A stretch of 64,000 bases of DNA, taken from assembly GCA_020351875.1 (NCBI GenBank), contig CP070671.1, positions 1,501,658 through 1,565,657 of the forward strand. The letters are read 5' to 3'. This DNA comes from Chromatiales bacterium. GTDB lineage: Bacteria; Pseudomonadota; Gammaproteobacteria; Steroidobacterales; GCA-2729495. Below are positions 9,895 to 29,466 of the stretch, in pieces. Position numbers and translations under genes: made by a program. The notes beneath the pieces are model-generated. The model did no database searches, was not told the origin of the DNA, and saw only the letters and a program-made list of their open reading frames with translations. The number at the start of each line of letters is the position of its first letter. The first letter of the stretch is position 1.

Positions 9895-10667
9895 CTCGTT
9901 GCGATGACAGGCAGCTCGAGGCAGTAGCGGCCCGCATCGGGTCGCGGCTCGCCGGGTCCGGCCGACTGACCCTGCTGACCGGCGCCGGCATCTCGGCCGA
10001 AAGCGGTGTGCCCACGTTTCGCGACATGGGCGGGCTGTGGGAACGCTACCGGGTGGAGGAGGTGGCCAGTCCGCAGGCTTTCCGGCGTGATCCGCAGCTG
10101 GTCTACCGCTTCTACAACCTGCGCCGTGCAGCGCTCGCAGACATCGCGCCGAATGCCGGCCATCAGGCCATTGCCCATCTCGAGCAACTGCTGGGCGATC
10201 GCTTCACGCTCATCACGCAGAACGTCGACGATCTGCACGAACGGGCAGGTAGCGAGCGACTGCTGCACATGCACGGCGAGCTGCGGAAAGCGCGCTGTAC
10301 GAGCTGTGACGGTGTCGCGCCCTGGCTCGCAGACCTGGACGGCGACAGTGTGTGCCCGGCCTGCGGTAAGGCAACGCTGCGGCCACACATCGTGTGGTTC
10401 GGTGAAGTACCGCTGCACATGGCAGCAGAGATCCCGCGCAGCCTGGAAACCGACGTGTTTATCAGTGTCGGGACCAGTGGCCAGGTCTATCCCGCGGGCG
10501 GTTTTGTGGCCGAGGCGCAGGCCGCCGGCGCCCTGACCGTGGAAATCAACCTGGAACCCGGCGAGACGTCCTCGTTGTTCGACCTGAAGCTGCACGGGCC
10601 CGCCGGCGAGATTCTGCCGCCCCTGGCAGCAAGGCTCGCAGACAGCTCGGAGGACCCGACTGGCTAA
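9891..10667 (+). CDS. cobB: Sir2-family NAD-dependent protein deacylase
   Basis: 258 residues from TTG 9891, which overlaps the DUF962 stop (TTGA). The sirtuin core is complete: GAGISAESGVPTFRD near 30, TQNVDDLHERAG near 109, catalytic HMHGEL near 126, a four-Cys zinc site (CTSCDGV ... CPACGK) and SVGTSGQVYPAGGF near 190. FYNLRR near 66 supplies the Tyr-x-x-Arg pair of class III sirtuins that favours succinyl or malonyl lysines. It removes acyl groups from protein lysines and consumes NAD. The 3' end overlaps hisE by 4 nt in a convergent arrangement. Confidence 0.87.
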   Translation: MTRCDDRQLEAVAARIGSRLAGSGRLTLLTGAGISAESGVPTFRDMGGLWERYRVEEVASPQAFRRDPQLVYRFYNLRRAALADIAPNAGHQAIAHLEQLLGDRFTLITQNVDDLHERAGSERLLHMHGELRKARCTSCDGVAPWLADLDGDSVCPACGKATLRPHIVWFGEVPLHMAAEIPRSLETDVFISVGTSGQVYPAGGFVAEAQAAGALTVEINLEPGETSSLFDLKLHGPAGEILPPLAARLADSSEDPTG

Positions 10668-10957
10668 CGCCGGCGTTGTGCGAGTTCCTCCACGACTTCT
10701 TCCAGACTCAGGTCGTTGATCCGCAGCAGCACCAGCAGGTGGTAGATCAGGTCGGCGGCTTCCGCTTTCAGGCGCGGGCCGTCGGCCTGCACGGCGGCAA
10801 TTGCCACCTCCACGCCTTCTTCACCGACCTTCTGGGCAATACGCGATGGCCCGGCCGCGAACAGCTGGGCGGTATAGCTCTGCTCGGTGCTCGCATTGCG
10901 ACGGTTGTCGATGGTCTGTTGCAGTTCCAGCAGGTAATCGAGAACTGGGGCATTCAT
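10664..10957 (-). CDS. hisE: Phosphoribosyl-ATP pyrophosphatase HisE
   Basis: 97 residues, a stand-alone HisE rather than the HisIE fusion of enterics. It hydrolyses PR-ATP to PR-AMP, step 2 of histidine synthesis. The all-alpha MazG-like core is visible: [13 protein letters not shown] near 43-55 and [13 protein letters not shown] near 66-78, with the acidic metal-binding residues EExxE and ExxD. It is the last gene of the operon and its ATG overlaps the hisF stop. The cyclohydrolase hisI that should follow is not here. Confidence 0.92.
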
Positions 10958-11724
10958 TCACGTATCTCCACCTGCCGTGCGCGCAGGTACTGTTTCAGGT
11001 CCTGGATGTTGATAGCGGCCGTGTGAAACACGCTGGCGGCCAGCGCGCCGTCGACCCGCGCTTCGTGGAACACGTCGGCGAAGTGCTCCATGGCACCGGC
11101 GCCGCCCGACGCAATGAGCGGCACGCTGCAACCGGCGCGCACCCGCTGCAGTTGCGGGATGTCGTAGCCCTTGCGCACGCCGTCCTGGTTCATGCAGTTC
11201 AACACGATTTCGCCGGCGCCACGTTCCTGTACCTCGCTGACCCAGTCCACCGTGAGCCGGCCACTGTGCCTGGTCTTGTCCGGATCGCCCGTGTACTGGT
11301 ACACACGGTACTCGCCGTTGGCTTCTTCCCGGCTGTCGATGCCCACGACGACGCACTGCGAGCCGAAGCGGGTCGCGAGTTCACCGATCAGCTCCGGGCG
11401 CGCCAGCGCCGGGCTGTTCACGGAGATCTTGTCGGCACCATAGTTCAGCACTTCTTCCGCTTCGGCGACGCTGCGAATGCCGCCGGCGACGCAGAACGGG
11501 ATGTCCAGCACCTCGGCCACGCGGTTCACCCAGCTGCGGTCCACGCGGCGCCCGTCCGGGCTCGCGGTGATGTCGTAAAACACGAGCTCATCGGCACCTT
11601 CTTCGCGGTAGCGCGCGGCAAGCGCCATGATGTCGCCCATGACCACGTGATCGCGAAACTGCACGCCCTTCACGACTTGCCCGTCGCGCACGTCGAGGCA
11701 CGGAATTATGCGTCTTGCAAGAAT
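10954..11724 (-). CDS. hisF: Imidazole glycerol phosphate synthase cyclase subunit HisF, ATT start
   Basis: 256 residues if translation begins at ATT 11724. With that start the protein reads [12 protein letters not shown], placing catalytic Asp at 11, exactly the family position, with the second Asp in VVGIDSREE near 130. The TIM barrel is complete and ends in [13 protein letters not shown] lies at 11733-11737 with an 8-nt spacer to ATT. No ATG, GTG or TTG occurs in frame near the family start; upstream codons are translated hisA antiphase sequence. The gene overlaps hisA by 19 nt. It forms the ammonia-using synthase with HisH. Confidence 0.9.
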
Positions 11725-12443
11725 TGTCCAATCTCCTCGAGGGTCAGACGGCCGTCCAGCAGGGCCTTGCCCGAGACCACGCCGGCCGCACCGGCGGCGG
11801 CCAGGGCCGGCAGGTCCGCTGCGTTGCTGACGCCGCCGGACGCGATGAACCGCACGTCGGGATAACGCCGCGTGCACTCGGTGTAAAGCGCGACGTTCGG
11901 GCCTTCCAGCGTGCCGTCGCGGGCGATGTCCGTGCACAGCACATCGCGGGCACCGACTGCGAGGTAACGGTCCAGCAAGTCCCATAGCGTGACGTCACTA
12001 CCACGGGTCCAGCCGTGGGTCTGCGGTACCGGCGTGCCGTTGTCGATACGCACATCGAAGGCCAGCACCACATGCTGTGCACCCACCGCGCCAATCCAGT
12101 CGATCACTTCTGCCGGCGACTGCACGGCGACAGAACCGATCACCGCGCGCTCCGCACCGGCGGCGAGCAGCCGTTCCAGCCGTGCCGCGTCGCGGATGCC
12201 GCCACCGGCCTGCACGCGCAGGCCCGTTGCCGCAAACGCCTCGATCACCGGCAGGTTGACCGGATCGCCGGTCTTCGCGCCGTCGAGATCCACCGCGTGC
12301 AGGCGCGTGAGGCCCGCCGCCAGGTAGCGTTCGGCGAGCTCTATGGGGTCCTGCTGGTAGCGGGTGACCTGGTCGAAGTCACCCTTGTACAGGCGCACCA
12401 CGCCGCCGCTCAGCAGGTCGATGGCAGGAATCACTTCCATCAT
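11706..12443 (-). CDS. hisA: HisA, ProFAR isomerase
   Basis: 245 residues of TIM-barrel sequence. It isomerises ProFAR to PRFAR, step 4 of histidine synthesis. The N-terminus [21 protein letters not shown] carries the catalytic Asp and the first phosphate site; VQAGGGIRD near 77 and [12 protein letters not shown] near 202 form further parts of the barrel. The start ATGATG overlaps the hisH stop (ATGA). The 3' end contains the hisF ribosome binding site and start. Confidence 0.95.
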
Positions 12444-13057
12444 GCGGGCGACAGCTCCAGGAAGTTGGCCAGCACGCGCGCGCCGTGTCTGCCCGAGCGT
12501 TCCGGGTGAAACTGGGTGGCAACGAAATTCCCGCGCTCGACAACCGCCGAGAACTCCCGGCCGTATTCGCAGCGCCCGGTGGTGAAGTCGGTCACCGGCA
12601 CCGCGTAGCTGTGGACGAAGTAGAACTGCGCACCGTCCGGTATGCCGGCCAGCAGGCCAGAGCCCGGTGTCTGCCAGACACGATTCCAGCCCATGTGCGG
12701 TACCGTGTGGTCCGCATCGGCTTCGAACAGCCGGGCAGTGCCAGGCAGGATCCCGAGGCAGTCGGTGTCGGCTTCTTCGGAGCCGTCGAACAGCAGTTGC
12801 AGGCCCAGGCAGATGCCGAGCACCGGCTGAGTCAGGGCCGGTATCACTTGATCCAGCGCACTCTCACGCAGGCGCGTCATCGCGTCGCGCGCGGCGCCGA
12901 CACCAGGCAGGATCACGCGCGCCGCGTCGCGAATCCGGCCCGCGTCCGTCGTCAGCTCACCGGCGACACCGAGCCGGGCCAGCGCGAACTTGAGCGATGC
13001 GATATTCGCGCCACCGCCATCCACGATGGCGAGTGCGTTGCTCGCGGTGGCATTCAC
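12440..13057 (-). CDS. hisH: HisH, glutamine amidotransferase subunit of IGP synthase
   Basis: 205 residues from GTG 13057, which overlaps the hisB stop (GTGA). It is a class I glutaminase with GICLGLQLLF near 79 (nucleophile Cys) and FHPERSG near 185 (catalytic His and Glu). PHMGWNRV near 118 and FVHSYAV near 143 match the HisH interface region. It supplies ammonia to HisF. A longer in-frame start at 13102 would lie inside hisB and is not preferred. Confidence 0.94.
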   Translation of the reverse strand: MNATASNALAIVDGGGANIASLKFALARLGVAGELTTDAGRIRDAARVILPGVGAARDAMTRLRESALDQVIPALTQPVLGICLGLQLLFDGSEEADTDCLGILPGTARLFEADADHTVPHMGWNRVWQTPGSGLLAGIPDGAQFYFVHSYAVPVTDFTTGRCEYGREFSAVVERGNFVATQFHPERSGRHGARVLANFLELSPA

Positions 13058-14127
13058 AGCGTGCCCTTGGTGCTGGGTAATTCGCGGCCGTCGCGCCGAC
13101 AAGCGTCGCGCAGCGCGCGGCCGGTGGCCTTGAAGCAGGACTCCACCATGTGATGCGTATTCTCACCCTGCACCGTCAGGTGCAGCGATGCACCCAGGCT
13201 CTCGGCCAGGGACCGGAAAAAGTGCGGCACCATTTCCGTGGGCAGGCCGCCGACTTCCGCGCGCGGAAACTCGCCTTCGAACACGGAGTAGGGTCGGCCG
13301 GACAGGTCCAGCGCCACCTGCGCCCGGGACTCGTCCATGGGCAACAGGAACCCGAAGCGCCCGATGCCGCGCTTGTCACCCAGCGCGTCGCGCAGGGCCT
13401 GGCCCAGCGCCAAGGCCGTGTCTTCGATCGTGTGGTGCTCGTCGACGTGCAGGTCGCCCTCGCAGTTCAGTCGCAGCGCGAAGCCGCCGTGTTTCGCGAT
13501 CTGTTCGAGCATGTGATCGAAAAAGCCGATGCCCGTGCCGACCTCGATGGGCCCTTCGCGGTCCAGGTCCACGTCCACCCGGATCCTGGTTTCCCGCGTT
13601 TGGCGGTTCACCGTGGCGGTGCGCGGTTGCTCGACGAGGTCGCGCACGATCTTGCTCCAGGCCGACGGGCTCGCGGGGTCGATGCGCAAGGCGGGCACCC
13701 CGATGTTGGCCCCCAGTTCCAGGTCGGTCTTGCGGTCACCGATGACGACGCTCGCTGACCGATTGACTTCGACACGCTCGAAAAAGTCGCCGATGTGCCC
13801 CGGCCGGGGCTTGCGACACAGGCAGGCATCGTCAGGCGTGTGCGGGCACACGAAGACCTCGAGAAATTCGATGCCCTGCGACGCAAAGAGCGCGACCACG
13901 AAGTCCTGCACCTGGTGGAAGTCCGACTCGGGAAAGCTGTCTGTGCCCAGCCCGTCCTGGTTGGTGACCATTACGAACTCGTAGCCGGCATCCTGCAGTC
14001 GCAGCAGGGCCGGGACCACGCCGGGTACGAGCTCGACCTTGTCCAGCCGATCCACCTGCTCGTCGGCGGGTTCCACGATCAGCGTGCCGTCGCGGTCCAG
14101 GAAGACGATGCGTTTGCCCTTCGCCAT
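13054..14127 (-). CDS. hisB: Bifunctional HisB: histidinol-phosphatase / IGP dehydratase
   Basis: 357 residues, close to E. coli HisB (355). The N-terminal HAD phosphatase domain has FLDRDGTL near 9 and a zinc loop CPHTPDDACLCRKPRPG near 99. The C-terminal dehydratase starts near 170 with RETRIRV and carries FFDHMLEQIAKHGG, DEHHTIEDTALALG and ENTHHMVES, the His-rich Mn-binding motifs. It carries out steps 6 and 8 of the pathway. The bifunctional form is typical of gammaproteobacteria. It starts 5 nt after the hisC stop; an open extension to 14319 lies inside hisC. Confidence 0.95.
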   Translation of the reverse strand: MAKGKRIVFLDRDGTLIVEPADEQVDRLDKVELVPGVVPALLRLQDAGYEFVMVTNQDGLGTDSFPESDFHQVQDFVVALFASQGIEFLEVFVCPHTPDDACLCRKPRPGHIGDFFERVEVNRSASVVIGDRKTDLELGANIGVPALRIDPASPSAWSKIVRDLVEQPRTATVNRQTRETRIRVDVDLDREGPIEVGTGIGFFDHMLEQIAKHGGFALRLNCEGDLHVDEHHTIEDTALALGQALRDALGDKRGIGRFGFLLPMDESRAQVALDLSGRPYSVFEGEFPRAEVGGLPTEMVPHFFRSLAESLGASLHLTVQGENTHHMVESCFKATGRALRDACRRDGRELPSTKGTL

Positions 14128-14132
14128 GTCAG

Positions 14133-15185
14133 TCACGCCTCCAGCGCGGCGAGCAGCTGGTCGTTGTCCTGCGGGCGGCCGACCGTGATCCGAAGGCAGC
14201 CGGGCGTCCACGCACTGTCGCTGAAGTCGCGGATCAGCACGCCGCCGGCTTTGGCCGCCGCCGCCAGTGCCGCCGCGTCCCTTGCCTCGAGCAGGATGAA
14301 ATTCGCGTCGCTGGGCCACACCCGGCGAACCCCGGGGAGAGCGGCCAGCCGCGCCGACAGGCGTTCGCGCTCGTGCCGGATGCGGGCGAGCTGCGCCTGG
14401 GCGGCTGCACGCGCCGCCGGCTCCAGGGCGGCGAGCACCGCGGTTTCGCAGGGCACCGGGATGGCGTAGGGCGGCAGGATTCGGCCGGTCATGTCCACCA
14501 CGTCAGGCGAACTCAACAACGCGCCGCAGCGCACGCCGGCCAGGCCCAGGGCCTTGGACAAGGTGCGCAGCACGACCAGCTGCGGGTAGCGATCGAGCAG
14601 CGCCATCAGTGCATCGTTGTTGGGCGCGAATTCGGCGTAAGCCGCGTCCACCACCACCAGGCCCCGCGTGGCCACGGCGTCGCACAGGGCCGCGATATCG
14701 TCGACGGCCAGCACATTCCCGGTGGGATTGTTGGGCGAACAGAGAAACGCGAGCCGCGTGCGCTCGTTCCACGCATGCTGCACGCCGCTGACATCCAACG
14801 TATAGCCCGCGTCGGCGAGCAGCGGCACCTCGACGATGCCGGCGCCCTGCACCTGGGCGTAGTGGGCATACATGCCGAAGGTCGGCGGGCAGATCACGAT
14901 GTCGTCCTGGCCGGGCCGGCACACCGCGCGGACCAGGAGTTCGATGGCCTCCGAGGACCCCCGCGTCACGAGCACACGCTCCGGGCCAACGCCATAGTGG
15001 TCGGCCAGGCGTGCCGTCAGCGTATCGGGGCGCGCCGGCGGGTAGCGGTTCAGCCCCTCCGCCCCGGCACTGGCCCACGGCACCTCGTTCGCATTCAGGC
15101 GCAGCAGCCCGGACTCGTAAGTGGCTGCCCGATAGGCTTGCAGCGACCGGAGTTCCGGCCGGAATAACGCGGTCAGGCCGTTCAT
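14133..15185 (-). CDS. hisC: Histidinol-phosphate aminotransferase HisC
   Basis: 350 residues, a fold-type I PLP enzyme. It transaminates imidazole acetol phosphate with glutamate, step 7 of histidine synthesis. LNANEVPW near 30, FLCSPNNPTGNV near 150 and LRTLSKALGLAGVRCG near 210 (PLP lysine) are visible. A conserved Arg lies in the C-terminal LRITVG. ATGA overlap with the hisD stop indicates tight translational coupling. Confidence 0.94.
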   Translation of the reverse strand: MNGLTALFRPELRSLQAYRAATYESGLLRLNANEVPWASAGAEGLNRYPPARPDTLTARLADHYGVGPERVLVTRGSSEAIELLVRAVCRPGQDDIVICPPTFGMYAHYAQVQGAGIVEVPLLADAGYTLDVSGVQHAWNERTRLAFLCSPNNPTGNVLAVDDIAALCDAVATRGLVVVDAAYAEFAPNNDALMALLDRYPQLVVLRTLSKALGLAGVRCGALLSSPDVVDMTGRILPPYAIPVPCETAVLAALEPAARAAAQAQLARIRHERERLSARLAALPGVRRVWPSDANFILLEARDAAALAAAAKAGGVLIRDFSDSAWTPGCLRITVGRPQDNDQLLAALEA

Positions 15186-16507
15186 GCCGCGCCGCGCTTG
15201 GATTGCCGCCGCAGCCGCACCCGCACGGCCTCCGCATGGGCATCCAGCCCCTCGAGACCTGCCAGCGTTGTAACCGTGTCCCCGAGCCCAGCCAGGCCCT
15301 CGCGGCTCAGCTCCTGGAACGTCAGCTGTTTCTGGAAACTGCCGACGGACAGGCCACTGTAGCTGCGCGCATAGCCGTAGGTCGGCAGCACGTGGTTCGT
15401 GCCGCTGCAGTAGTCACCCACGGACTCCGGGGTCCAGGGACCGAGGAAGACCGAGCCTGCATTTTCTATGTAATCAATAAATTGTCGAGGATTATCAACC
15501 TGAATTATTAGGTGTTCCGGCGCATAGCGGTTCACGATGTCGAAGGCCTCGCCGAGATCGTCCGTCAGGATCACCGCCCCGTGCTGCAGCGACGCGCTGA
15601 TGATTTCGCGGCGCGGCAGGGCCGGCAGCGCCGCCGCGATGGCCCGCTGCGTGGCCTCGGCCAGGGCGGCGTCCGTGCAGACCAGGATGGCCTGCGAATC
15701 GGGACCGTGCTCGGCCTGCGACATCAGGTCCAGCGCGACGTACTCCGGGTCGGCACCGGCATCGGCCACCACCATGACTTCCGACGGCCCGGCGGGCATG
15801 TCCAGCGCTGCGCCCGCCGGGTCGGCCGCCACCTGGGTTTTCGCCGCCGTGACCCACGCATTGCCGGGCCCGAAAATCTTGTCCACCTTCGGCACGGTGG
15901 CCGTGCCATAGCCCATCGCGGCAACGGCCTGGGCGCCACCCACCTTGAAAATTTGCTCGACCCCGCAGGCCTGGGCCGCGACCAACACGGCCGGGTCGGC
16001 GCGGCCATCCGGCCGCGGCGGCGTGCAAATGATGCGTACCGGGCAGCCAGCGAGACGTGCCGGTACCGCCAGCATGATGGCGGTGGAGGGCAGGGGTGCA
16101 CTGCCGGCCGGCACGTACAGGCCCACGGCCGGGACCGGGCGGGACACGCGTTCGCAGATCACGCCCGGCGCGGTCTCGACCCGGATCGGCGGCGCCAGCT
16201 GCGCGGCGTGAAAGCGTTCGACATTGCCCACGGCGGTGTCGATGGCGGCGATCGCATCCGCGCCGAGTTCCGCCCGCGCCCCGGCCGCTTCTGCTGCACC
16301 CACCTGCAGGGAGTCCAGCGTTGCGCGGTCGAATTCACGCGCGAAACGCAGCAGCGCGGCGTCGCCGTCGCGCCGGACCGCCGCGATGATGTCAGCCGCC
16401 TGGGCGGCGATTTCCGGGTTCGCCTTCACGGCCGGGCGCGTGAGCGCGTCGGCGCGCGCCGCTTCGTCCAGTTCGCTCCAGCGAATCACGTTCATGCCGG
16501 TGGTCAT
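15182..16507 (-). CDS. hisD: Histidinol dehydrogenase HisD
   Basis: 441 residues. It performs the last two NAD-dependent oxidations from histidinol to histidine with a zinc ion. Typical stretches include YVPAGSAPLPSTAIM near 131, GGAQAVAAMGYGT near 190, GPGNAWVTAAK near 213, AGPSEVMVVAD near 239, QAEHGPDSQA near 263 and FLGPWTPESVGDYCSGTNHVLPT near 355. The start is ATG 16507 (ATGA overlap with hisG) or the Met four codons later. A short AT-rich stretch (15461-15513) is still in frame and encodes the conserved DNPRQFIDYIENAGS. Confidence 0.95.
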   Translation of the reverse strand: MTTGMNVIRWSELDEAARADALTRPAVKANPEIAAQAADIIAAVRRDGDAALLRFAREFDRATLDSLQVGAAEAAGARAELGADAIAAIDTAVGNVERFHAAQLAPPIRVETAPGVICERVSRPVPAVGLYVPAGSAPLPSTAIMLAVPARLAGCPVRIICTPPRPDGRADPAVLVAAQACGVEQIFKVGGAQAVAAMGYGTATVPKVDKIFGPGNAWVTAAKTQVAADPAGAALDMPAGPSEVMVVADAGADPEYVALDLMSQAEHGPDSQAILVCTDAALAEATQRAIAAALPALPRREIISASLQHGAVILTDDLGEAFDIVNRYAPEHLIIQVDNPRQFIDYIENAGSVFLGPWTPESVGDYCSGTNHVLPTYGYARSYSGLSVGSFQKQLTFQELSREGLAGLGDTVTTLAGLEGLDAHAEAVRVRLRRQSKRGAA

Positions 16508-17406
16508 GCGAGCATCTTCTCCACCGGGACCACGAGCACCGAGCTGGCACCGATGCTTTTCAGGTTTTCCAGGGTTTCCCAGAACACGGTTTCGCGGCAG
16601 ACCACGTGCACGGCCACCTTGTCGTCGCGGCCTTCCAGCGGCAGTACCGTGGGGGCCTCCGAGCCGGGCAGCAGTTCACTGATCTGGCCGAGCGCGCTTT
16701 TGGGCGCGTGCATCATGATGTATTTGCTTTCGCGCACCTGCATCACGCCCTCGATGCGTTGCAGGAGACGGTCGATCCACTCCTGCTTGGCCGGCGGAAT
16801 GTCCACCGGCGTGCGCAGAATGACCGCTTCGCTGTCGAGGATGGTTTCACCTTCGCGAAGCTTGTGGGCCTTCATCGTGGTTCCCGTGGACACCAGGTCA
16901 CAGATCGCATCTGCGCGGCCGAGGCTGGGCGCGATTTCCACGGCGCCGGAGAACTCGACCACGTCGGCGGCAATGCCTTCTCGCCGCAGGTAGTCCGCCA
17001 CCACGTTCGGATAGCTGGTGGCCACCCGCTGCCCGGCCAGCTCCGCAACTGTCTGCACCGGCCCGTCTTCCGGGTAGCCGAAACACAGTCGGCAGTGCCC
17101 GTAGTCCAGCCGCTGGAGGATGGAAAAGGGCTCGCCGGGGCCATTGTCCTGGAAGCCCAGCCGGGCCTCTTCCACGATGTTGAGCCCGACCACACCCAGG
17201 TCGCAGACGTCGTCGCGGACCAGGGCCGGGATGTCGTCGTCGCGCACCAGCAGGATGTCCAGCGGCATATTCTCGCCGAAGCAGATCAGCTGATCGCGGG
17301 CGCGCGTGTATTTCAGGCCGCAGCGCTGCAGCAGGTCCAGCGAGTGGTCGGTCAGGCGCCCGGACTTCTGGATTGCGATCTTGATACGTGTTTCTTTATC
17401 AATCAT
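16504..17406 (-). CDS. hisG: ATP phosphoribosyltransferase HisG, long form
   Basis: 300 residues, the long form with its own C-terminal regulatory ACT-like domain (from about 225), like the E. coli enzyme (299). It commits ATP and PRPP to histidine synthesis and is the usual feedback target of histidine. RIKIAIQKSGRL opens the protein. CDLVSTGTTMKAHKLREGE near 171 is the PRPP-binding loop. It starts 6 nt after the regulator gene stop; the C-terminal segment SSVLVVPVEKML is intact. Confidence 0.95.
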   Translation of the reverse strand: MIDKETRIKIAIQKSGRLTDHSLDLLQRCGLKYTRARDQLICFGENMPLDILLVRDDDIPALVRDDVCDLGVVGLNIVEEARLGFQDNGPGEPFSILQRLDYGHCRLCFGYPEDGPVQTVAELAGQRVATSYPNVVADYLRREGIAADVVEFSGAVEIAPSLGRADAICDLVSTGTTMKAHKLREGETILDSEAVILRTPVDIPPAKQEWIDRLLQRIEGVMQVRESKYIMMHAPKSALGQISELLPGSEAPTVLPLEGRDDKVAVHVVCRETVFWETLENLKSIGASSVLVVPVEKMLA

Positions 17407-17412
17407 TTACAA

Positions 17413-17718
17413 CTACTTCTTAAGGCGTTCCAGCGCCTTTTGATAGCCGCCGGCGCCACTGGTCAGGAAGCGCGCGACCCGGCTGATCGTGGTCAGGCTC
17501 ACGCCGGTGCGGTCGTGCACCTGGCGATAGCTCAGGCCTTCGGCCAGGCACTCGGCCACGGCCCAGCGGTCTTTCAGGGCCTGCAGTTCCGCCGGCGTGC
17601 AGAGGTCCTGTAAAAACGCCCGGCATTCGGCGAGGTCCTGCAGGCTCAGCAACGCGCGGAACAATTCGTCTTCGGCCGCGACTTCCTCGCGGGGACTCAG
17701 TACTCGGTGGTCCTTCAT
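17413..17718 (-). CDS. TrpR-superfamily YerC/HisR-type regulator
   Basis: 101 residues with the YerC/YecD layout: an N-terminal helical region, then AECLAEGLSYRQVHDRTGVSLTTISRVARFL near 57-87, a TrpR-like helix-turn-helix. Family members have been proposed as repressors of histidine synthesis in Firmicutes. Here the gene is the first of the his operon, 6 nt upstream of hisG. A TrpR-like palindromic operator overlaps its own promoter, so autoregulation together with hisGDCBHAFE is the straightforward reading. The corepressor (histidine?) is inferred. Confidence 0.85.
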   Translation of the reverse strand: MKDHRVLSPREEVAAEDELFRALLSLQDLAECRAFLQDLCTPAELQALKDRWAVAECLAEGLSYRQVHDRTGVSLTTISRVARFLTSGAGGYQKALERLKK

Positions 17719-17735
17719 GGCTCCCGGGTGTTCAA

Positions 17736-17757
17736 ATGTATTAACATGTTAGTACAT
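17736..17757. promoter_or_regulatory. TrpR-like operator for the his operon
   Basis: A 22-bp near-perfect palindrome (one mismatched pair) with half-sites TGTATTA and TAGTACA separated by 6 bp, centred between 17746 and 17747. The enteric trp operator has half-sites TGTACTA and TAGTACA with the same 6-bp gap, so geometry and sequence closely match. It overlaps the predicted -10 of the regulator-his promoter and lies 18 bp upstream of the regulator ATG. Confidence 0.75.
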
Positions 17758-17774
17758 TAAAACAGTCGCGGCAA
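17746..17774 (-). promoter_or_regulatory. Predicted sigma-70 promoter of the his operon
   Basis: On the minus strand TTGCCG (17774-17769) is followed by a 17-nt spacer and TAACAT (17751-17746). The -10 lies inside the palindromic operator, so a bound repressor would block polymerase. Predicted transcription starts near 17739, leaving a leader of about 20 nt. Confidence 0.55.
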
Positions 17775-17780
17775 GCCCGG

Positions 17781-17810
17781 TTGACCGGTTTTGTGACTGC
17801 CGCCTAAACT
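17781..17810 (+). promoter_or_regulatory. Predicted promoter of metB
   Basis: TTGACC (17781-17786), an 18-nt spacer and TAAACT (17805-17810) on the plus strand give a plausible sigma-70 promoter about 50 nt before the metB ATG. It does not overlap the palindromic operator 24 bp away, so metB may or may not be influenced by the same repressor. No MetJ-box-like repeat was recognised. Confidence 0.5.
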
Positions 17811-17860
17811 CCGCCGCCCGCGGCGCGGGTCTTGCCGCGCCCAGCAACCGGACAAAGCCT

Positions 17861-19018
17861 ATGAGCCAGGACAACACCAGACAGACCCGGGCGGTCCGGG
17901 CGGCCGTGCACAGCGACACCCAGCACGGGGCCGTGATGCCGCCGCTGTACCTGACGTCGAATTTCGCGTTCGAGGGCCTCGGCAAGGCGGGCGCCTACGA
18001 CTACACGCGCACCGCCAATCCCACGCGCGACGCGCTGGCCAATGCACTGACCGAGCTGGAGGGCGGTGCCGGCGCCACCGTCACCGCATCCGGTATGGCC
18101 GCCATCCACCTGGCCTGTCAGCTGCTGAACCCCGGCGACCTGGTGGTCGGGCCACGGGATTGCTATGGCGGCACGTTTCGGCTGCTGACCCAGTGCGCAC
18201 AGCGAGGACTGTTCCGGGTGGAGCTGATCGACCAGGCGGATGTGGCGGCGCTGGATGCAGTCATCGCCCAGGAGCCGCGGCTGCTGTGGGTAGAAAGCCC
18301 GACGAACCCGCTGATGCGCGTGATCGATCTGGCGGCGCTCAGCCAGCGGGCGAAGACTGCCGGTGCGCTGATGGCCGTGGACAACACCTTCCTGTCGCCA
18401 GCGCTGCAGCGCCCGCTGGCCCTCGGCGCCGACCTGGTGGTGCACTCCACGACCAAGTACCTGAATGGTCACAGCGACATGGTGGGCGGCGCGGTGATTG
18501 CCGGCACCCCGGAACTCGCCGAGCAGCTGGCCTACTGGGGCAACGCGGTCGGGCTGACCGGTTCGCCCTTCGATGCCTTCCTGACCCTGCGCGGTATCCG
18601 GACCCTGTACGCCAGGATGCGCCAGCACGAGGAGAACGCGCTGGCGCTTGCGGAGTTGCTGGCGGGACACCCGGCGGTGACCCGCGTGCATTACCCGGGC
18701 CTGCCTTCCCACCCGGACCATGCGCTGGCGAAACGCCAGCAATCCGGTTTCGGCGGCATGTTGAGTTTTGAACTGACCAGCGGTGAGGCCGGCGTGCGCG
18801 CGCTGCTGGAAGCGATCGAGCTCTACACGCTGGCGGAATCGCTGGGCGGGGTGGAGAGCCTGATTTGCCACCCGGCCAGCATGAGCCACGCGACCTTCGA
18901 CGCCGCAAGCCTCGCCGCCGCCGGGATCGGGGCGGGCCTGCTGCGGATTTCCGTGGGGATCGAGTCGACTGACGACCTGGTGCGGGATTTGGCGCGGGGC
19001 CTGGACGCCGCCGGTTAA
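17861..19018 (+). CDS. metB: Cystathionine gamma-synthase family PLP enzyme
   Basis: 385 residues, the same length as E. coli MetB (386). It joins an activated homoserine ester with cysteine (or sulfide) in methionine synthesis. [24 protein letters not shown] near 44, SGMAAIHLA near 75, [12 protein letters not shown] near 145 and [16 protein letters not shown] near 194 (PLP Lys near 198) are intact. Exact specificity (gamma-synthase, gamma-lyase or sulfhydrylase) cannot be fixed from the sequence. Its last codons and those of leuB on the other strand share one perfect palindrome. Confidence 0.87.
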
Positions 19019-19029
19019 CCGGCGGCGTC
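19004..19029. repeat. Perfect 26-bp palindrome at the metB/leuB convergent end
   Basis: Two 13-nt arms (19004-19016 and 19017-19029) are exact reverse complements with no loop, centred on TTAA. Both genes end in the same peptide, DAAG, followed by TAA, and their stop codons interlock. A GC-rich hairpin can form in either transcript, but no T-tract follows, so intrinsic termination is uncertain. Confidence 0.9.
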
Positions 19030-20076
19030 AAACGCCGCGAGGATCGCATCGCCCATGGCCTCGCTGCCCAGCGCGGCCCCGCCGGGCTCGGCGATGTCAC
19101 CGGTGCGGTGGCCGGCGGCGACCGCTGCGAACACCGCCGTTTCGACCCGGCTCGCCAGTTCCTCGAGGCCCAGCGAGTAGCGCAGCAGCATCGCCACGCT
19201 GAGGATCGTGCCGCACGGGTTCGCGATACCCTTGCCGGCAATATCCGGGGCCGAACCGTGGATCGGTTCAAACAGGCCGCGCCGGTCGGCATTCAGGGAC
19301 GCCGACGGCAGCATGCCCAGCGAGCCGGACAGCATAGACGCCTCGTCGGTGAGCAGGTCGCCGAACAGGTTTTCCGTCACGATCACGTCGAAGTCCGCCG
19401 GTCGTGACAGCAGGTGCATCATCGCCGCGTCCGCGAGTACGTGCTCCAGCTGCACGTCGCTGAAGTCTTTTGCGTAGACCTCGGTGGTGACGCTGCGCCA
19501 CAGGCGCGAGGTGTCCATCACGTTGGCCTTGTCCACGGAGGCCACCTGGGCGCGCCGGCCGCGCGCCAGCTCGCCCGCCATCCGCACCACGCGCTCTATC
19601 TCGTGCCGCGTGTAGGCGCACAGGTCGCGGGCCGAGTTCTCGTCGCGGGATTTTTCGCCGAAGTACACGCCACCGGTCAGCTCGCGGACCACGAGTATGT
19701 CGACACCCTCCAGCCGGTCGGGCTTCAGCGGTGACGCAGCGTACAGGGCCGGGTGGGTCTTCACCGGCCGCAGGTTCGCGTAAACCTGCATCGCTGCGCG
19801 CATGTCGAGCAGGCCCTGCTCGGGGCGTACTGTCGCGTTCGGATCGCTCCACCTGGGCCCGCCCACGGCGCCGAGCAGCACGGCGTCGGCTTCTTTACAC
19901 AGCGCGCGCGTGTCGATCGGGAAGGGTTCGCCGGTCGCGTCCATCGCCGCCCCGCCGATCAGCGCTTCGCGGATCTCGAACTTTTCTCCCGCGGCCTGGC
20001 CGGCCGCGGCGAGCACACGCACGGCCTGGGCGATGATCTCCGGCCCGATGCCGTCGCCGGGTAGGACAGCGATCAG
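19015..20076 (-). CDS. leuB: 3-isopropylmalate dehydrogenase LeuB, CTG start
   Basis: 353 residues if started at CTG 20076. The family N-terminus [13 protein letters not shown] begins directly after this codon, and no ATG, GTG or TTG lies in frame between it and the stop upstream; the first conventional start (GTG 20022) would remove the conserved nucleotide-binding strand. The CTG overlaps the leuD stop (CTGA). GAVGGPRW, the active-site Arg/Tyr region and [17 protein letters not shown] near 219 are present. It oxidatively decarboxylates 3-isopropylmalate in leucine synthesis. Last gene of the operon. Confidence 0.92.
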
Positions 20077-20657
20077 GGCTGCAACGGTCGATCCTGTTCG
20101 AACTCCGCGATCGCACCCGCCTGCGACAGCAGGTAGCCGAGCTGGTCGATGCCTTCCATCAGGCAGTGGCGGGAGAAGCCGTCCAGCGGAAACTCCACCC
20201 GGCTGCCGTCCGGCAGCGTCAGCGTCCGCGAATCAACGTCCACCGTCACTTCTGCACCCGGGTTAGCCAGCAGCGTCTCGTGCACGTCGGCGGACACGAT
20301 GACCGGCACCAGGCCGTTCTTCAGCGAGTTGTTACGGAAAATGTCCGCAATGCGCGTGCTGATGACGGCGCGAAAGCCGAAGTCCACCAGGCCCCAGGGC
20401 GCGTGCTCGCGCGACGAGCCGCAGCCGAAATTGTTCCCGGCCACCAGCACCTGGCAGGCCTGTGCGCCCGGGGCGTTCAGCGGGAAGTCGGCGATGGGTT
20501 GCCCCTGGTCGTCGTAGCGCCAGTCGGCAAAAGCGGCATCGCCCAGGCCTTCCTTGTTCGTGGTGGTGAGGTATCGCGCCGGCATGATCTGGTCGGTGTC
20601 GATGTCGCTCTGCGGCAGCACGATGGTGCGCGAGGTAATGCGGGTGATCTTTTCCAT
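20073..20657 (-). CDS. leuD: Isopropylmalate isomerase small subunit LeuD
   Basis: 194 residues from ATG 20657. It forms the swivelling domain that pairs with LeuC to isomerise 2- to 3-isopropylmalate. [13 protein letters not shown] near 19 and [16 protein letters not shown] near 73 are the hallmark motifs; [12 protein letters not shown] near 108 follows. An open extension to 20687 overlaps leuC and is not preferred. It starts 10 nt after the leuC stop. Confidence 0.94.
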
Positions 20658-20667
20658 ATCGGTGATC

Positions 20668-22077
20668 TCAGTGATTGAGCAACGCACGCGGATCGGCGAT
20701 CTCGCCGGCCACCGCGGCGGCCGCCGCCGTCTGCGGGCTGGCCAGCACGGTGCGGGCGCCGACGCCCTGCCGGCCCTCGAAATTGCGATTGCTGGTGCTC
20801 ACGCACAGCTTGCCCGGCGGCACCACGTCGCCGTTCATGCCCAGACACATCGAGCAGCCGGCTTCGCGCCATTCCGCCCCGGCGGCCTGGAAGACTTCGT
20901 GCAGCCCCTCGGCTTCGGCCTGCTGTTTCACTGCCTGTGAACCGGGCACCACCAGCATGCGCACGTTGTCGGCCACGCGCCGGCCCTGCAGTACGCTGGC
21001 CGTCTCGCGCAGATCCGACAGGCGGGAGTTCGTGCAGCTGCCGACGAAGACCACGTCCACCGGCGTGCCCAGCATCGGCTGCCCGGCGGCCAGGCCCATG
21101 TAGTCCAGCGCCTTGCGGAAGCTCAGGTCCCCGGTGTCGGCGGGTACCTGGCCGGTGACCGGCACCACCATGCCCGGGTTGGTCCCGAAAGTGACCTGGG
21201 GGTCCAGGTCGCTGACGTTCAGGTTCAACTCGAGATCGAAGACCGCGTCGTCATCCGACGGCAGCGCGAGCCACCGGGTCACCGCTGCATCCCAGTCAGC
21301 GCCCTGCGGGACCCGTGGCCGGCCGGCCAGGTATTCCACCGTGGTGTCATCCGGCGCGATCATGCCGGCGCGCGCACCACCCTCGATCGTCATGTTGCAG
21401 ACGGTCATGCGCTGTTCCATCGTCAGCCCGCGCACCGTGCTGCCACGGTACTCGAGCACGTGGCCGACGCCGCCGTCCACGCCGATGCGCCCGATCAGCG
21501 CCAGCACGATGTCTTTGGCGCCAACACCCGGCCTCAGCGTGCCTTCGATGTTCACCGCCATGGTCTTCGGCTGGCGCTGCAGCAGGGTCTGGGTTGCCAG
21601 CACGTGGCCCACCTCGGTGCTGCCGATGCCAAAGGCCAGCGCGCCGAAGGCGCCGTGCGTGCTCGAATGGCTGTCGCCGCACACGATGGTCTTGCCCGGC
21701 TGGGTGGCGCCGAGCTCCGGCCCGATCACGTGCACGATGCCGCGGTGCTCGCTGTCAAAGCCGAGCAGGTCGATACCGAACTCCTCACAGTTCACGATCA
21801 TCTGGCGAATCTGGCCGGCTGCGGCGGGTTCCGCGACCACGTCGAGCTCACCGAGGCTCGGCACCGGCACCGTCGGCGTCGAGTGATCCATGGTCGCCAG
21901 CGTGAGGTCCGGGCGGCGCACTGGCAGGCCGCGCTCGCGCAGCATGTCGAAGGCCTGCGGTGTGGTGACTTCGTGAATCAGGTGCAGGTCGATATAGAAC
22001 ACCGCCGGATTGTCCGGGGTTTCCGGCACGACCAGGTGGTCCTGCCAGACTTTCTCGAAAAGCGTTTGACCACTCAT
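20668..22077 (-). CDS. leuC: Isopropylmalate isomerase large subunit LeuC
   Basis: 469 residues from ATG 22077 ([11 protein letters not shown]), an aconitase-family subunit carrying a [4Fe-4S] cluster. Cluster Cys motifs [13 protein letters not shown] near 345 and [10 protein letters not shown] near 407 are present, as are [14 protein letters not shown] near 29, MDHSTPT near 62 and [33 protein letters not shown] near 128. It works with LeuD. An open extension to 22131 is spurious. Confidence 0.95.
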
Positions 22078-22137
22078 TCGGGTGTCGTCTCCGTATGTCT
22101 TGCCCGGGTCTTGCCGGTGGGTCGCCGGCACCCGGAT

Positions 22138-23100
22138 CTAGCGGGTTGCAGCGAGTTCGCCCGCGTTCTGCCCGCCGGGCAGCACGGGTTCGAGCCAGCC
22201 CCAGCGGTCTTCCGTGCGGCCGTCGAACAGCCCGAAAAAGCTGTCCTGCAGCTGCTGCGTCACCGGGCCGCGCCCGCCGTTGCCCACGGGCAACCGGTCC
22301 ACCGAGCGCACCGGTGTCACTTCTGCCGCCGTCCCGGTCAGGAACATTTCATCGGCGATGTAGAGCATCTCGCGCGGAATGCTCTGTTCGACGATTTCGA
22401 GGCCGAGGGCCCGGGCCAGCGTGATGACGGTGTCGCGGGTAATGCCGGTCAGGATCGATGCGCAGGCGGGCGGTGTGTAGAGCCTGCCGTCGCGCACGAG
22501 GAAAATATTCTCGCCCGCGCCTTCGCTGACCGTGCCATCGGTGGCCAGCGCGATGCCTTCCACGAAGCCGCGCTCCTTGGCCTCCAGGCTCACGAGCGTG
22601 CTGGCCAGGTAATTCCCGCCGGCTTTCGCCAGTGCCGGCAGCGTGTTCGGCGCCACGCGCTGCCACGATGACACGCAGACATCCACGCCTTTCTCGAGGC
22701 CCTCATCGCCGAGGTAGGCACCCCATTCCCAGGCCGCGACGGCCACGTCCACCGGGTGATCGGCGGGCGGGGCCAGGCCGATGTCGCCATAGCCCCGGAA
22801 GGCGATCGGGCGAATGTACGCGCCGTTGTTCAGCCCGTTGCGCACCACGACGTCGCGGCAGGCGGCGTTGATCTCGTCGGCGGAACAGGGAATGCGAATG
22901 CGGTGAATCTTGGCCGAGTCCAGCATCCGCTGGGTGTGGGCCTGCAGCCGGAACACCATGGAGCCGCCGGGCGTGGGATACACGCGAATGCCCTCGAACA
23001 CGGACGAGCCGTAGTGCAGGGCATGCGTCAGCACGTGCACGCGCGCCTCTTCCCAGGGCACCAGCTCCCCGTTGTGCCAGATCCACTCGCTCTTTTTCAT
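22138..23100 (-). CDS. ilvE: Branched-chain amino acid aminotransferase IlvE
   Basis: 320 residues from ATG 23100, a fold-type IV PLP enzyme that makes the final amino transfer to Leu, Ile and Val. WHNGELVPWEEARVHVLTHALHYGSSVFEGIRVY opens the protein. KAGGNYLASTLVSLEAKERGFVEGIAL near 160 includes the PLP lysine, and VSEGAGENIFLVRDG near 196 and FLTGTAAEVTPV near 263 are conserved. It is located between leuA and leuC, unusual relative to enteric leuABCD, which suggests coordinated branched-chain control. Confidence 0.93.
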   Translation of the reverse strand: MKKSEWIWHNGELVPWEEARVHVLTHALHYGSSVFEGIRVYPTPGGSMVFRLQAHTQRMLDSAKIHRIRIPCSADEINAACRDVVVRNGLNNGAYIRPIAFRGYGDIGLAPPADHPVDVAVAAWEWGAYLGDEGLEKGVDVCVSSWQRVAPNTLPALAKAGGNYLASTLVSLEAKERGFVEGIALATDGTVSEGAGENIFLVRDGRLYTPPACASILTGITRDTVITLARALGLEIVEQSIPREMLYIADEMFLTGTAAEVTPVRSVDRLPVGNGGRGPVTQQLQDSFFGLFDGRTEDRWGWLEPVLPGGQNAGELAATR

Positions 23101-23128
23101 TGGCTTTCGACTCCGGGCAGGGTCCGCG

Positions 23129-24706
23129 CTAGATCGTCGCCGCCTGCTTGGCGGCCACGCTGTCGGCTTCGGCGCTGTCGTGCCTGGTTCGCCGGGCCAC
23201 GCGGTTGATGACCTCCAGGTAGGCCCGGGCGGCGGCTTCGACGATGTCGGTGCTGACGCCGTTACCCCGGTAACTCTGGCCATTATATTCCACGGTCACG
23301 GTCACCTCACCCTGCGCGTCTTCGCCGATGGACACGCTGCGCACTTCGAAATTGCGCAGGTCCAGGTCGATGCCCGTGGCGCGTTCCAGGGCGGTGAACG
23401 CGGCCTCGACCGGGCCATCGCCCACCGCGGCTTCCTTGATGGTCCGCCCGTCAGCGTGGCTCAGTTGCACCGCGGCGGCGGCAATGGTCCCCGTGCCGGC
23501 GGAAATGTGCAGCTCATCGATAGTCCACGGGCCGGTGCTGCCGGTTTCCGCGTTCATGATGATGGCTTCCAGGTCGGAGTCGAACAGTTCCTTCTTGCGG
23601 TCTGCCAGTTGCTTGAACGCGTCGAAGGCCCGGTTCAGCTCCGCGTCTTCCAGGCTGAAGCCCAGCTGTTCCACCCGCTCACGGAACGCGTGGCGGCCGC
23701 TGTGCTTGCCCAGCACCAGGTTCGAGCGGCTCAGGCCCACGTCTTCCGGGCGCATGATTTCGTAGGTGGACGCGTGCTTCAGCATGCCGTGCTGGTGAAT
23801 GCCGGCCTCATGGGCAAAGGCGTTCTCGCCCACCACGGCCTTGTTGCGCGGGATGTGCATGCCGGTGATGCTCGCCACCAGCCGACTGGTCGGGTACAGC
23901 TTGGTGCTGTCGATCCCGGTCTCCAGGCCGAAGTGCTCGGCCCGCGTGCGCAGGGCCATTACCACCTCTTCCAGTGAACAGTTGCCGGCCCGCTCGCCGA
24001 TGCCGTTGATGGTGCACTCCACCTGTCGGGCCCCGGCGCCGACGGCCGCCAGGCTGTTGGCGACGGCCATCCCCAGGTCGTTGTGACAGTGCACGCTCAG
24101 GATTGCCTGGTCGATGTTCGGCACGTGCTCGCGCAGGTAGCGGAACAACTCGGCGAACTCCGTCGGCACGGTGTAGCCCACCGTGTCAGGAATATTCACC
24201 GTGCCGGCACCGGCCTCGATGACGGCCGCGACCACCTCGGCCAGGTAGGCCGGTTCCGTGCGGGACGCATCTTCCGGCGAGAATTCCACGTCGTCACAGG
24301 ACTCCCGGGCCAGGCGCACCGCGTCCACGGCCGAGCGGATGATTTCGTCCTTGGCCAGCTCCAGCTTGTACTTGCGGTGAATCTCACTGGTGGCCACGAA
24401 CACGTGGATGCGCCGGTTGGCCGCCGGTTCCAGCGCGCGCGCGGCGCGCTCGATGTCACCCGGGTGGCAGCGGGCCAGGCTGCAGATGCGCGGACCTTCC
24501 ACGCTCTCCGCGATGGCCTTGACCGATTCGAAGTCGCCGGGCGATGCGGCGGCGAAGCCGGCCTCGATGACGTCCACGCGCAGGTCGCGGAGCGCAGCGG
24601 CTACGCGCAGCTTTTCCCGGAGGGTCATGCTGCATCCAGGTGCCTGTTCGCCATCGCGCAAGGTCGTGTCGAATATGGTGACACGCTTGTTTGCCTGCTC
24701 GTTCAT
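23129..24706 (-). CDS. leuA: 2-isopropylmalate synthase LeuA
   Basis: 525 residues from ATG 24706. It condenses acetyl-CoA and 2-oxoisovalerate, the first leucine-specific step. FDTTLRDGEQAPG near 12-24 carries a metal-binding Asp, SVHCHNDLGMAVANSLAAV near 205 the HxH metal pair, and GERAGNCSLEEVVMAL near 238 the GxGERxG loop. A C-terminal leucine-binding regulatory domain (about 400-515) is present, so leucine feedback is expected. It starts 38 nt after the ilvC stop. Confidence 0.95.
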   Translation of the reverse strand: MNEQANKRVTIFDTTLRDGEQAPGCSMTLREKLRVAAALRDLRVDVIEAGFAAASPGDFESVKAIAESVEGPRICSLARCHPGDIERAARALEPAANRRIHVFVATSEIHRKYKLELAKDEIIRSAVDAVRLARESCDDVEFSPEDASRTEPAYLAEVVAAVIEAGAGTVNIPDTVGYTVPTEFAELFRYLREHVPNIDQAILSVHCHNDLGMAVANSLAAVGAGARQVECTINGIGERAGNCSLEEVVMALRTRAEHFGLETGIDSTKLYPTSRLVASITGMHIPRNKAVVGENAFAHEAGIHQHGMLKHASTYEIMRPEDVGLSRSNLVLGKHSGRHAFRERVEQLGFSLEDAELNRAFDAFKQLADRKKELFDSDLEAIIMNAETGSTGPWTIDELHISAGTGTIAAAAVQLSHADGRTIKEAAVGDGPVEAAFTALERATGIDLDLRNFEVRSVSIGEDAQGEVTVTVEYNGQSYRGNGVSTDIVEAAARAYLEVINRVARRTRHDSAEADSVAAKQAATI

Positions 24707-24744
24707 CGGTCGTCTCCGTTGCCTGCCCGGCACGTTGCCGGGCG

Positions 24745-25737
24745 TCAGTTCTCCTCGTTCAACCAGGGCATCCTGGCCCGCAGTTCTGCACCCACCGGCT
24801 CGATGGGGTGTTCGAGATCCACGCCGAGGAGCCGCTTGAATTCCGGCTGCCCGGCCTCGTTCTCTTCGATCCAGCGCCGCGAGAACACCCCGTCCTGGAT
24901 GTCCTTCAGCACCTCTTTCATGCGGTCACGCACGTGCTGGTCGATGACCCGCGGGCCGCTGATCAGGTCGCCCCACTGGGCGGTCTCGCTGATGAACTCG
25001 TGCATCTTCGCCAGCCCGCCTTCATGGAGCAGATCGACGATCAGCTTGAGTTCGTGCATGCACTCGAAATAGGCCACCTCCGGCTGGTAGCCGGCGTCCA
25101 CCAGGGTTTCGTAGCCGGCCAGCACCAGTTCCGTTGCGCCGCCACACAGCACCGCCTGCTCGCCGAACAGGTCCGTTTCGGTTTCCTCGGCGAAGGTGGT
25201 CTCCAGCACGCCGGCGCGTGCCCCGCCGATACCCTGGGCGTAGGCCAGCGCGGTGGCGAGCGCGTTGCCGCTCGCGTCCTGGGCCACGGCCACCAGGCAC
25301 GGCACGCCCTTGCCCTGTTCATACTGGCGCCGAACGAGGTCGCCCGGGCCCTTCGGTGCGATCAGGACCACGCCGAGGTCGCGGCGCGGTTCGATCTGGC
25401 CGAAGTGGATATTGAAGCCGTGGGCGAACAGCAGCGTGGCGCCGTCCGGAATCGAGTCTTCGATCTTGCCGTACAGCCGCGCCTGGGCCGTGTCCGGCAG
25501 CAGGAACGCGACCAGGTCGGCGTCCGCCACCGCTGCCGCCGGTTCCCGGACTTCCAGGCCGTCAGCTTCCGCTTTGGCCCACGTCTTGCCGCCAGGCCGC
25601 AGCCCGACGACGACAGTCAGGCCGCTGTCGCGCAGGTTCAGCGCGTGGGCACGCCCCTGGCTCCCGTAGCCGATCACGGCGATACGCTTGCCGGCCAGCC
25701 GGGTCGCATCCACGTCACTTTCTGCGTAAATCTTCAT
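24745..25737 (-). CDS. ilvC: Ketol-acid reductoisomerase IlvC (class I)
   Basis: 330 residues, the short class I form. It converts acetolactate and acetohydroxybutyrate to dihydroxy acids with NADPH and Mg. The Rossmann motif [18 protein letters not shown] near 21, [13 protein letters not shown] near 127 and [17 protein letters not shown] near 185 (Mg ligands) are intact. A strong AGGAG lies 8 nt before the ATG. It is the first structural gene of the ilvC-leu operon; ilvB/ilvN are not adjacent. Confidence 0.95.
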
Positions 25738-25793
25738 CTTGTATTTCTCCTGCGGAATCGTCCGCGATCATTCAACCTGGTCCAAAGGGGGCA

Positions 25794-25826
25794 CAAAAAA
25801 ACCCCGCTACCTGGGCCGGTGCGGGG
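25794..25826 (-). terminator. Intrinsic terminator (attenuator) upstream of ilvC
   Basis: On the minus strand CCCCGC (25826-25821) and GCGGGG (25807-25802) form a 6-bp GC stem with a 13-nt loop, followed directly by seven T residues (25801-25795). It lies 57 nt before the ilvC ATG, inside the leader. The upstream arm can also pair with GGTGCGGG further 5', which would abolish the terminator. Confidence 0.8.
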
Positions 25827-25870
25827 TCTTGAAATCTGTCGGCCCGATCAGGCGCCCAGAGGCCCGCACC
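25818..25870 (-). promoter_or_regulatory. Antiterminator pairing of the ilvC leader
   Basis: On the minus strand GGTGCGGG (25870-25863) is fully complementary to CCCGCACC (25825-25818), an 8-bp pairing that uses the terminator's 5' arm. The first segment sits at the end of the leader peptide reading frame (codons AGG TGC GGG), where ribosome position would decide the fold. This is a classical attenuation geometry. Confidence 0.7.
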
Positions 25871-25910
25871 TCCACTGCGCAAGCTCGAGGAGTCGCACGG
25901 ACGAAGCCAT
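25848..25910 (-). CDS. Leader peptide of the ilvC-leu operon
   Basis: A 20-residue frame starting at ATG 25910: MASSVRLLELAQWRCGPLGA, ending in TGA inside the attenuator leader. It contains a Val codon and three Leu codons, with CTC CTC adjacent, about 15 nt upstream of the antiterminator arm. An in-frame ATG at 25946 would give 32 residues. The ribosome binding site is weak for both. That it is translated is inferred from its position relative to the alternative stems. Confidence 0.55.
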   Translation of the reverse strand: MASSVRLLELAQWRCGPLGA

Positions 25911-25952
25911 CTCGTCTGCGGCGGGCGTGTTGACAAAATCAGCCATCGGAAA

Positions 25953-25981
25953 ATGTTCGGGTATGCTGCGAACCTTGTCAA
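25953..25981 (-). promoter_or_regulatory. Candidate promoter of the ilvC leader
   Basis: A perfect -35 consensus TTGACA (25981-25976) is followed at 17 nt by GAACAT (25958-25953), a poor -10. It would begin transcription near 25946, just upstream of the leader peptide. The weak -10 makes this tentative; another start site further upstream is possible. Confidence 0.4.
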
Positions 25982-26245
25982 CCTCGAGGGTCACGCAGGC
26001 TCTGTGTGATATGCTGGCACAAGTCCGGTGGGGATACATTCGGCACGAAAAACGGGTGCCGGATCCCGCGGACGAGGGGGCCGGCCGATCGTCTGCAGAT
26101 GGGTGGCCTCGGTGGTTGGAGTCATCGGTTTCGCCTGCAAAGCTAATGCGGGGCCGGGCTTACATGTAGTAACCTAGAAAATGCTTGAAGCCCGCGGTTG
26201 CGCGTGGGGAATAACAAGCGTGCTCGCTGGCGCGCAAAATTCGAT

Positions 26246-26269
26246 CAAATTGCTGTCCAAATTGCTGTC
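26246..26269 (+). repeat. Tandem 12-bp direct repeat before the DUF3450 gene
   Basis: CAAATTGCTGTC occurs twice head to tail (26246-26257 and 26258-26269) without any mismatch, ending 13 nt before the ATG at 26283 and abutting the AAGGGG ribosome binding sequence. It may be an operator, a translation control element or a slippage duplication. Confidence 0.85.
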
Positions 26270-26282
26270 AAGGGGATCCCTC

Positions 26283-27056
26283 ATGAGTCCAAGAAGCTGG
26301 ATGTCGTGGCTCGTGGCAGGCAGTGCCGTATTCGTACTGCTGCCGTCATTCGCCATGGCTCAGTCCCTCGAAAGAGTCCTGAATGCGCAGGAACGGCGCA
26401 CCCGCCTCGCGCAGGAATCTCAGGAACGCGTCGATGCCACGGTCAAACAGACGCGCAGCCTTGAAGATCAGTACAAGGCCGTGCTGAAGGAAATCGAAGG
26501 GCTCGAGGTCTACAACACCTTGCTTCAGCGGCAGGTCGACAACCAGGTCCTGCAGCTCACGGACCTGGAAGCGTCCCTGCAGCAAGTGGAGGTCATCAAC
26601 CGCCAGATCGTGCCGATCATGACGAAGATGATCGAGGGACTGGAGCAGTTCGTCGACCTGGACGTGCCTTTCCTGCTGGAAGAACGCACCGACCGCATCG
26701 CAAGTCTGTGGGAACTGATGGAGCGCCAGGATGTGACCGTGGCCGAGAAGTTCCGCAAGGTCACCGAGGCCTTCCAGATCGAGAATGACTACGGGCGCAC
26801 GATCGAGGCCTACAAGGGCACGCTGGAACTGGATGGCGCGACGCGCCAGGTGGATTTCCTGCGCATTGGTCGAATCGCCCTGGTCTACCAGACGGAAGAC
26901 GGCAAGATCTCCGGCGTCTGGGACCAGCAAGGCAACACCTGGCAGTCGCTGGGCAACGAGTACAAGAACCAGATCAAGTTCGGTCTGCAGATCGCCCGTA
27001 AACAAGTCGCACCGGACCTGGTGTTGATGCCTGTTGATGCCCCGGAGGCCGGCTGA
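26283..27056 (+). CDS. DUF3450 periplasmic protein of a TonB2-type system
   Basis: 257 residues from ATG 26283. A signal peptide (MSPRSWMSWLVAGSAVF...AMA, cut near 26) is followed by a long coiled coil (about 28-115) and a C-terminal globular part ending in KQVAPDLVLMP. DUF3450 genes occur next to ttpC-exbB-exbD-tonB in Vibrio- and Shewanella-like bacteria, where they assist the TonB2 energy-transduction complex. An open upstream extension (to 26181) lacks a signal-peptide start and runs through the 12-bp repeats. The next gene overlaps the stop (TGATG). Confidence 0.85.
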   Translation: MSPRSWMSWLVAGSAVFVLLPSFAMAQSLERVLNAQERRTRLAQESQERVDATVKQTRSLEDQYKAVLKEIEGLEVYNTLLQRQVDNQVLQLTDLEASLQQVEVINRQIVPIMTKMIEGLEQFVDLDVPFLLEERTDRIASLWELMERQDVTVAEKFRKVTEAFQIENDYGRTIEAYKGTLELDGATRQVDFLRIGRIALVYQTEDGKISGVWDQQGNTWQSLGNEYKNQIKFGLQIARKQVAPDLVLMPVDAPEAG

Positions 27057-28444: not shown

Positions 28445-28468
28445 GCCGGTAGCCGGAGAGACACGCGG

Positions 28469-28996: not shown

Positions 28997-29021
28997 CAGG
29001 TCCTGGGAAGGTGCAAGCAAC

Positions 29022-29450: not shown

Positions 29451-29466
29451 AGAGAGGACGCGAAGC

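Follow-up and report, generated by a model that had tools for sequence, protein, structure and literature searches.

A near-copy of the trp operator at the head of a histidine operon raises the question of which protein reads the site, how far the site extends and which genes it controls. The window, the whole 64,000-nucleotide stretch of DNA that was analysed, carries a tightly packed minus-strand run of genes in the order hisR-hisG-D-C-B-H-A-F-E. Its first gene, hisR (17413–17718), encodes a putative YerC-type repressor of the TrpR family, 101 amino acids long, that matches PF01371 with 88.9 bits. The run continues with a long form of hisG that includes a HisG_C domain (16504–17406, from the family-model test), hisD (15182–16507; TIGR00069, 526 bits), hisC (14133–15185, assigned from translation and position), a hisB that fuses a HAD phosphatase to a dehydratase (13054–14127, assigned from its translation, start codon inferred) and the overlapping or abutting genes hisH-hisA-hisF-hisE (10664–13057, assigned from their translations). 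A separate hisE (10664–10957), also recognized by PF01503 (77 bits, at G000:C1:1512330), closes the operon. hisI stands alone at a distance of 1.8 Mb (G000:C1:3326063–3326290) and has no HisR-like site. Family models, gene order and translations confirm the his operon with a YerC/HisR-type first gene that an earlier sequence-only reading had described.

A HisR site at this position is not a new claim. Ashniev et al. (2022, PMC9413887) described HisR for 51 members of the Gammaproteobacteria and 11 of the Alphaproteobacteria. In most of them its gene opens the his operon, and directly in front lies a 20-bp site with a motif ‘quite similar’ to that of TrpR. The same layout is found here: hisR stands first in the his unit, and a 20-bp palindrome of the TGTAnTA type lies directly upstream of it.

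This predicted core operator, parsed as TGTATTA-ACATGT-TAGTACA (TGTATTAACATGTTAGTACA; 17737–17756, not assigned to a strand), sits between hisR and a divergent metB-like gene (17861–19018, plus strand), 19–38 bp upstream of hisR. Nine of its ten base pairs are symmetric. The near-perfect palindrome noticed earlier is real, its start having been placed one base too early. Symmetry alone was dropped as evidence, since nine sites in the window reach at least 9/10 symmetric pairs and a bare palindrome is not rare. More specific is the TrpR/HisR-type motif, which occurs in the window once with no mismatch, next to three other matches with three mismatches each (1.27 expected by chance). In the 3.49-Mb genome, TGTANTA-N6-TANTACA has a single perfect match, at this site, which supports the TrpR-like operator proposed before. 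The twelve genomic sites with two mismatches are close to background, with 13 sites in all against 10 per strand for the reversed pattern that served as the control. A wider HisR regulon was considered and rejected, as the genome holds no second exact site and the stand-alone hisI carries none.

Searching related genomes revealed that 37 of 40 members of the same family have a YerC gene. The upstream region was read in 34 of these 37, and in all 34 loci the operator precedes a hisR-hisG-hisD unit, scoring 12–14 of the 14 specified positions; the scan of relatives that the sequence-only reading had called for came out in favour of the motif. The exact motif was found in 17 of the 40 family genomes, at one site each, and upstream of hisR in 16 of the 17. 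The operator also stands at 49 more HisR loci of Proteobacteria, drawn from further gammaproteobacterial families and orders and from a few Alphaproteobacteria; a minimum score of 11 out of the 14 operator positions had been required for their selection, so they gauge the architecture of the flanks, not the frequency of the site. HisR control in Proteobacteria, as predicted in 2022, is borne out by the family-wide sample.

Alignment of the loci on the core demonstrated that conservation spans 36 bp, extending 8 bp to either side of the core before it drops to background. The core noted previously stands, and the conserved feature (17729–17764) is larger than had been recognized. In the window it forms an 18-nt inverted repeat with arms at 17729–17746 and 17747–17764, and an additional half-site lies 8 bp outside the core on each side: TGTTCAA (17729–17735, plus strand; 4/6 match to TGTANTA) and TGTTTTA (17758–17764, minus strand; 5/6 match). 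Among all offsets tested, from 7 to 30, outer half-sites were enriched exclusively at 8. The 7-mers at this offset match TGTANTA at a mean of 4.25 of 6 positions in the family (0.9–2.2 at other offsets) and at a mean of 3.87 of 6 for the 49 loci outside it (1.0–2.0 at other offsets). At least one outer half-site scoring at least 4/6 is present in 100% of the family operators and 86% of the other 49, compared with 9% and 11% for shuffled flanks, in counts that include related loci, whose flanks are non-independent samples. The most plausible reading is that four half-sites, repeated with an 8-bp period, make up a 36-bp operator array, TGTnTTAa/TGTAnTAr/cgtgyTAn/TACAtTAnnaCA in the hisR sense. 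Neighbouring TrpR dimers on DNA are shifted by 8 bp, and the half-site spacing is that expected if TrpR-type dimers bind side by side. The repetition of half-sites at 8 bp beyond the core is that of a TrpR-like multi-dimer operator and suggests occupancy by more than one dimer.

A simpler explanation is that a single HisR dimer occupies the 20-bp core, the outer half-sites being remnants or part of an A+T-rich promoter feature. It agrees with the 20-bp site of Ashniev et al., with the 30-bp probe flanked by poly-G that sufficed for Ruminococcus gnavus HisR (PMC9413887), and with the mere 4/6 match of the left outer half-site in the window. We nevertheless consider it unlikely, as both sets of loci show half-sites enriched on either side at exactly 8 bp and at no other offset, and as column conservation runs over the full 36 bp and then ends. 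The outer half-sites could also serve RNA polymerase instead of HisR, a role disfavoured by the way they mirror each other across the core at exactly 8 bp. In an attempt to look for 8-bp flanks at Firmicutes-type motifs we fetched 23 loci, just one of which adjoins a hisR. An operator of 36 bp with four regularly spaced half-sites would extend the published 20 bp and is worth testing; we found no description of a 36-bp, 8-bp-period architecture for HisR in the open-access literature searched, the supplementary files of PMC9413887 lying outside that search.

The promoter of the hisR-his operon probably runs through the array. The best minus-strand pair combines a probable −35 element, TTGCCG (17774–17769), with a probable −10 element, TAACAT (17751–17746), 17 nt apart, the latter inside the core operator. 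The placement of the −10 within the palindrome agrees with the sequence-only reading; the pair is a weak one, an 8/12 match to the consensus read by eye that falls below the threshold of the promoter scanner. In support of the −35, relatives keep a CTTG element at discrete distances from the operator; relative to the core, its TTG is mainly found at −27/−26 (18 family loci) or at −18 (5 family loci). The two distances are about one 8-bp unit apart, which is suggestive only. We propose that the promoter can slide by one unit, since each unit would offer a half-site as well as a usable −10.

On the other side of the array lies the promoter of the divergent metB, TTGACC-18-TAAACT (17781–17810, plus strand), which was found by promoter scan and aligned with most of 12 relatives. 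Its TTGACC...CTACACT sequence is kept in relatives, and a 12-nt inverted repeat with 11 of 12 positions paired (CGCGGCAAGCCC at 17767–17778 and GGTCTTGCCGCG at 17828–17839) surrounds the metB promoter and leader. Many relatives (L012–L041) have metB, for cystathionine gamma-synthase, and leuB in the region upstream of hisR (17861–22131 in the window). Since roughly half of the family loci have a divergent metB beside hisR, the operator might also regulate metB and link methionine to histidine synthesis. This is improbable, and we rejected co-regulation: the metB promoter adjoins the 36-bp operator without overlapping it, lies 17 bp away from the array and shows conservation of its own, and the operator is unchanged where leuB or other genes replace metB.

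The regulator itself belongs with YerC and not with TrpR. It passes the YerC model TIGR02531 (77.8 bits, cut-off 42.2), fails the TrpR model TIGR01321 (22 bits, cut-off 67.25) and is the only PF01371 protein encoded in the genome. Where TrpR has Gly85 in its tryptophan pocket, this protein carries a valine in place of a glycine or other small residue. Valine occupies this position in 128 of 128 HisR proteins, including that of the window, and glycine (18) or cysteine (3) in 21 of 21 TrpR proteins, a split that is partly by construction as the labels were set from residues around the pocket position that follow the pocket arginine. The HisR/TrpR division is supported independently, because the phylogenetic tree and the linkage to hisG-hisD agree with it. 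The recognition pair (TrpR positions 79–80) is Ile-Ala in most TrpR proteins, Val/Leu-Thr in most proteobacterial HisR proteins and Thr-Ala in Firmicutes HisR. The TrpR-like half-site TGTA-(T/C)-TA is common to proteobacterial HisR and hence non-diagnostic.

That the YerC-type protein senses tryptophan, alone or together with histidine, and so couples expression of the his genes to tryptophan by way of a TrpR-like site would fit the likeness to the trp operator and a genome that encodes no other PF01371 protein. We regard this as very improbable given the failed TrpR model, the valine at the Gly85 position in every HisR, the response of the Firmicutes orthologue to histidine and the his operon as the sole exact target. 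Three Gammaproteobacteria, G332, G227 and G088 (L071–L073), hold both a HisR and a TrpR; their TrpR-type proteins have cysteine for glycine at the tryptophan-pocket position, and their HisR sites are TGTACTA or close variants while the TrpR sites differ (e.g. TGTAATG). Another genome, G360, encodes a second, very divergent HisR-like protein (L074; recognition helix STTTITRVNR) beside its his-linked HisR (L060). Control of the operon by an RNA leader (attenuator or T-box) instead of a repressor, the mode of E. coli and partly of Firmicutes (PMC9413887), is scarcely credible and was rejected, as only about 20 nt separate the putative transcription start from hisR, too few for an attenuator, and no Rfam RNA element was matched in positions 12000–30000 of the window.

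The sequence-only reading had further suggested a change of target, to the his genes, by a regulator that retained the DNA code of TrpR. In our tree, TrpR and HisR form two cleanly separated groups (support 100/99) joined by long branches and unrooted; Firmicutes HisR proteins form one group (99/98), and a single clade of proteobacterial HisR gave a p-AU of 0.57 (98 columns, no outgroup). The shared code holds; the direction from TrpR to HisR is not supported, because the root of the tree is not inferable and this path is indistinguishable from one leading from HisR to TrpR. HisR is more widespread across phyla than TrpR, both in our survey and in PMC9413887. A more cautious formulation gives proteobacterial HisR and TrpR a TGTA-type half-site in common and Firmicutes HisR a different one, cacTTTA (PMC9413887).

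Taken as a whole, the locus is, with high confidence, a proteobacterial HisR regulatory unit, an autoregulated his operon with a 36-bp operator of four half-sites, and HisR very probably docks there and switches the operon off. We infer the repression, the number of bound dimers and the exact promoter from the arrangement of these elements. By analogy with R. gnavus HisR, the one case in which histidine-dependent DNA binding was shown (PMC9413887), the co-repressor here would be histidine. Histidine would bind HisR, one dimer would settle at the centre, over the core palindrome, and as many as two others could bind beside it, each displaced by 8 bp, neighbours sharing half-sites as TrpR dimers do at their multi-dimer operators. 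The bound HisR would cover the −10 element and the spacer of the operon promoter, and hisR and hisG-D-C-B-H-A-F-E would be shut off together in an autoregulatory negative-feedback loop. The full proposal, that proteobacterial HisR represses the his operon through up to three side-by-side dimers on a 36-bp, 8-bp-period operator and that the promoter slides by one 8-bp unit between species, stands in our judgement at even odds of being correct. The length of the operator matters for site models and for binding tests, as a core-only probe would miss any cooperative binding. Matched sets of recognition helices and half-sites from TrpR, proteobacterial HisR and Firmicutes HisR offer a test of how a small repressor family switches its ligand and DNA code.

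Compared with the HisR sites published for Gamma- and Alphaproteobacteria (PMC9413887), which are 20 bp long, the operators of the window family and of other families span 36 bp with an 8-bp period. Firmicutes HisR/YerC proteins (B. subtilis yerC, R. gnavus HisR) belong to TIGR02531, as does the window protein, and the solved relatives 3g1c, 3kor and 3frw are 41–44% identical to it. They differ in the recognition helix, STATISR in Firmicutes HisR versus S[VL]TTI[GS]R, in the half-site cacTTTA and in regulons that include transporters. The published motifs are TGTAcT... for TrpR, TGTAnTA... for proteobacterial HisR and cacTTTA... for Firmicutes HisR (PMC9413887). TrpR resembles HisR in protein superfamily, in the TGTA-CTA half-site and in the 20-bp core; it differs in forming a separate group in the tree, in the Gly/Cys at the pocket position, in a mostly Ile-Ala recognition pair and in its trp regulon. 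TrpR binds as tandem pairs of dimers with cooperativity (PMC8745587), and the title of Kumamoto (1987), as cited in PMC7518442, has it bound at more than one site in both operators, trp and aroH.
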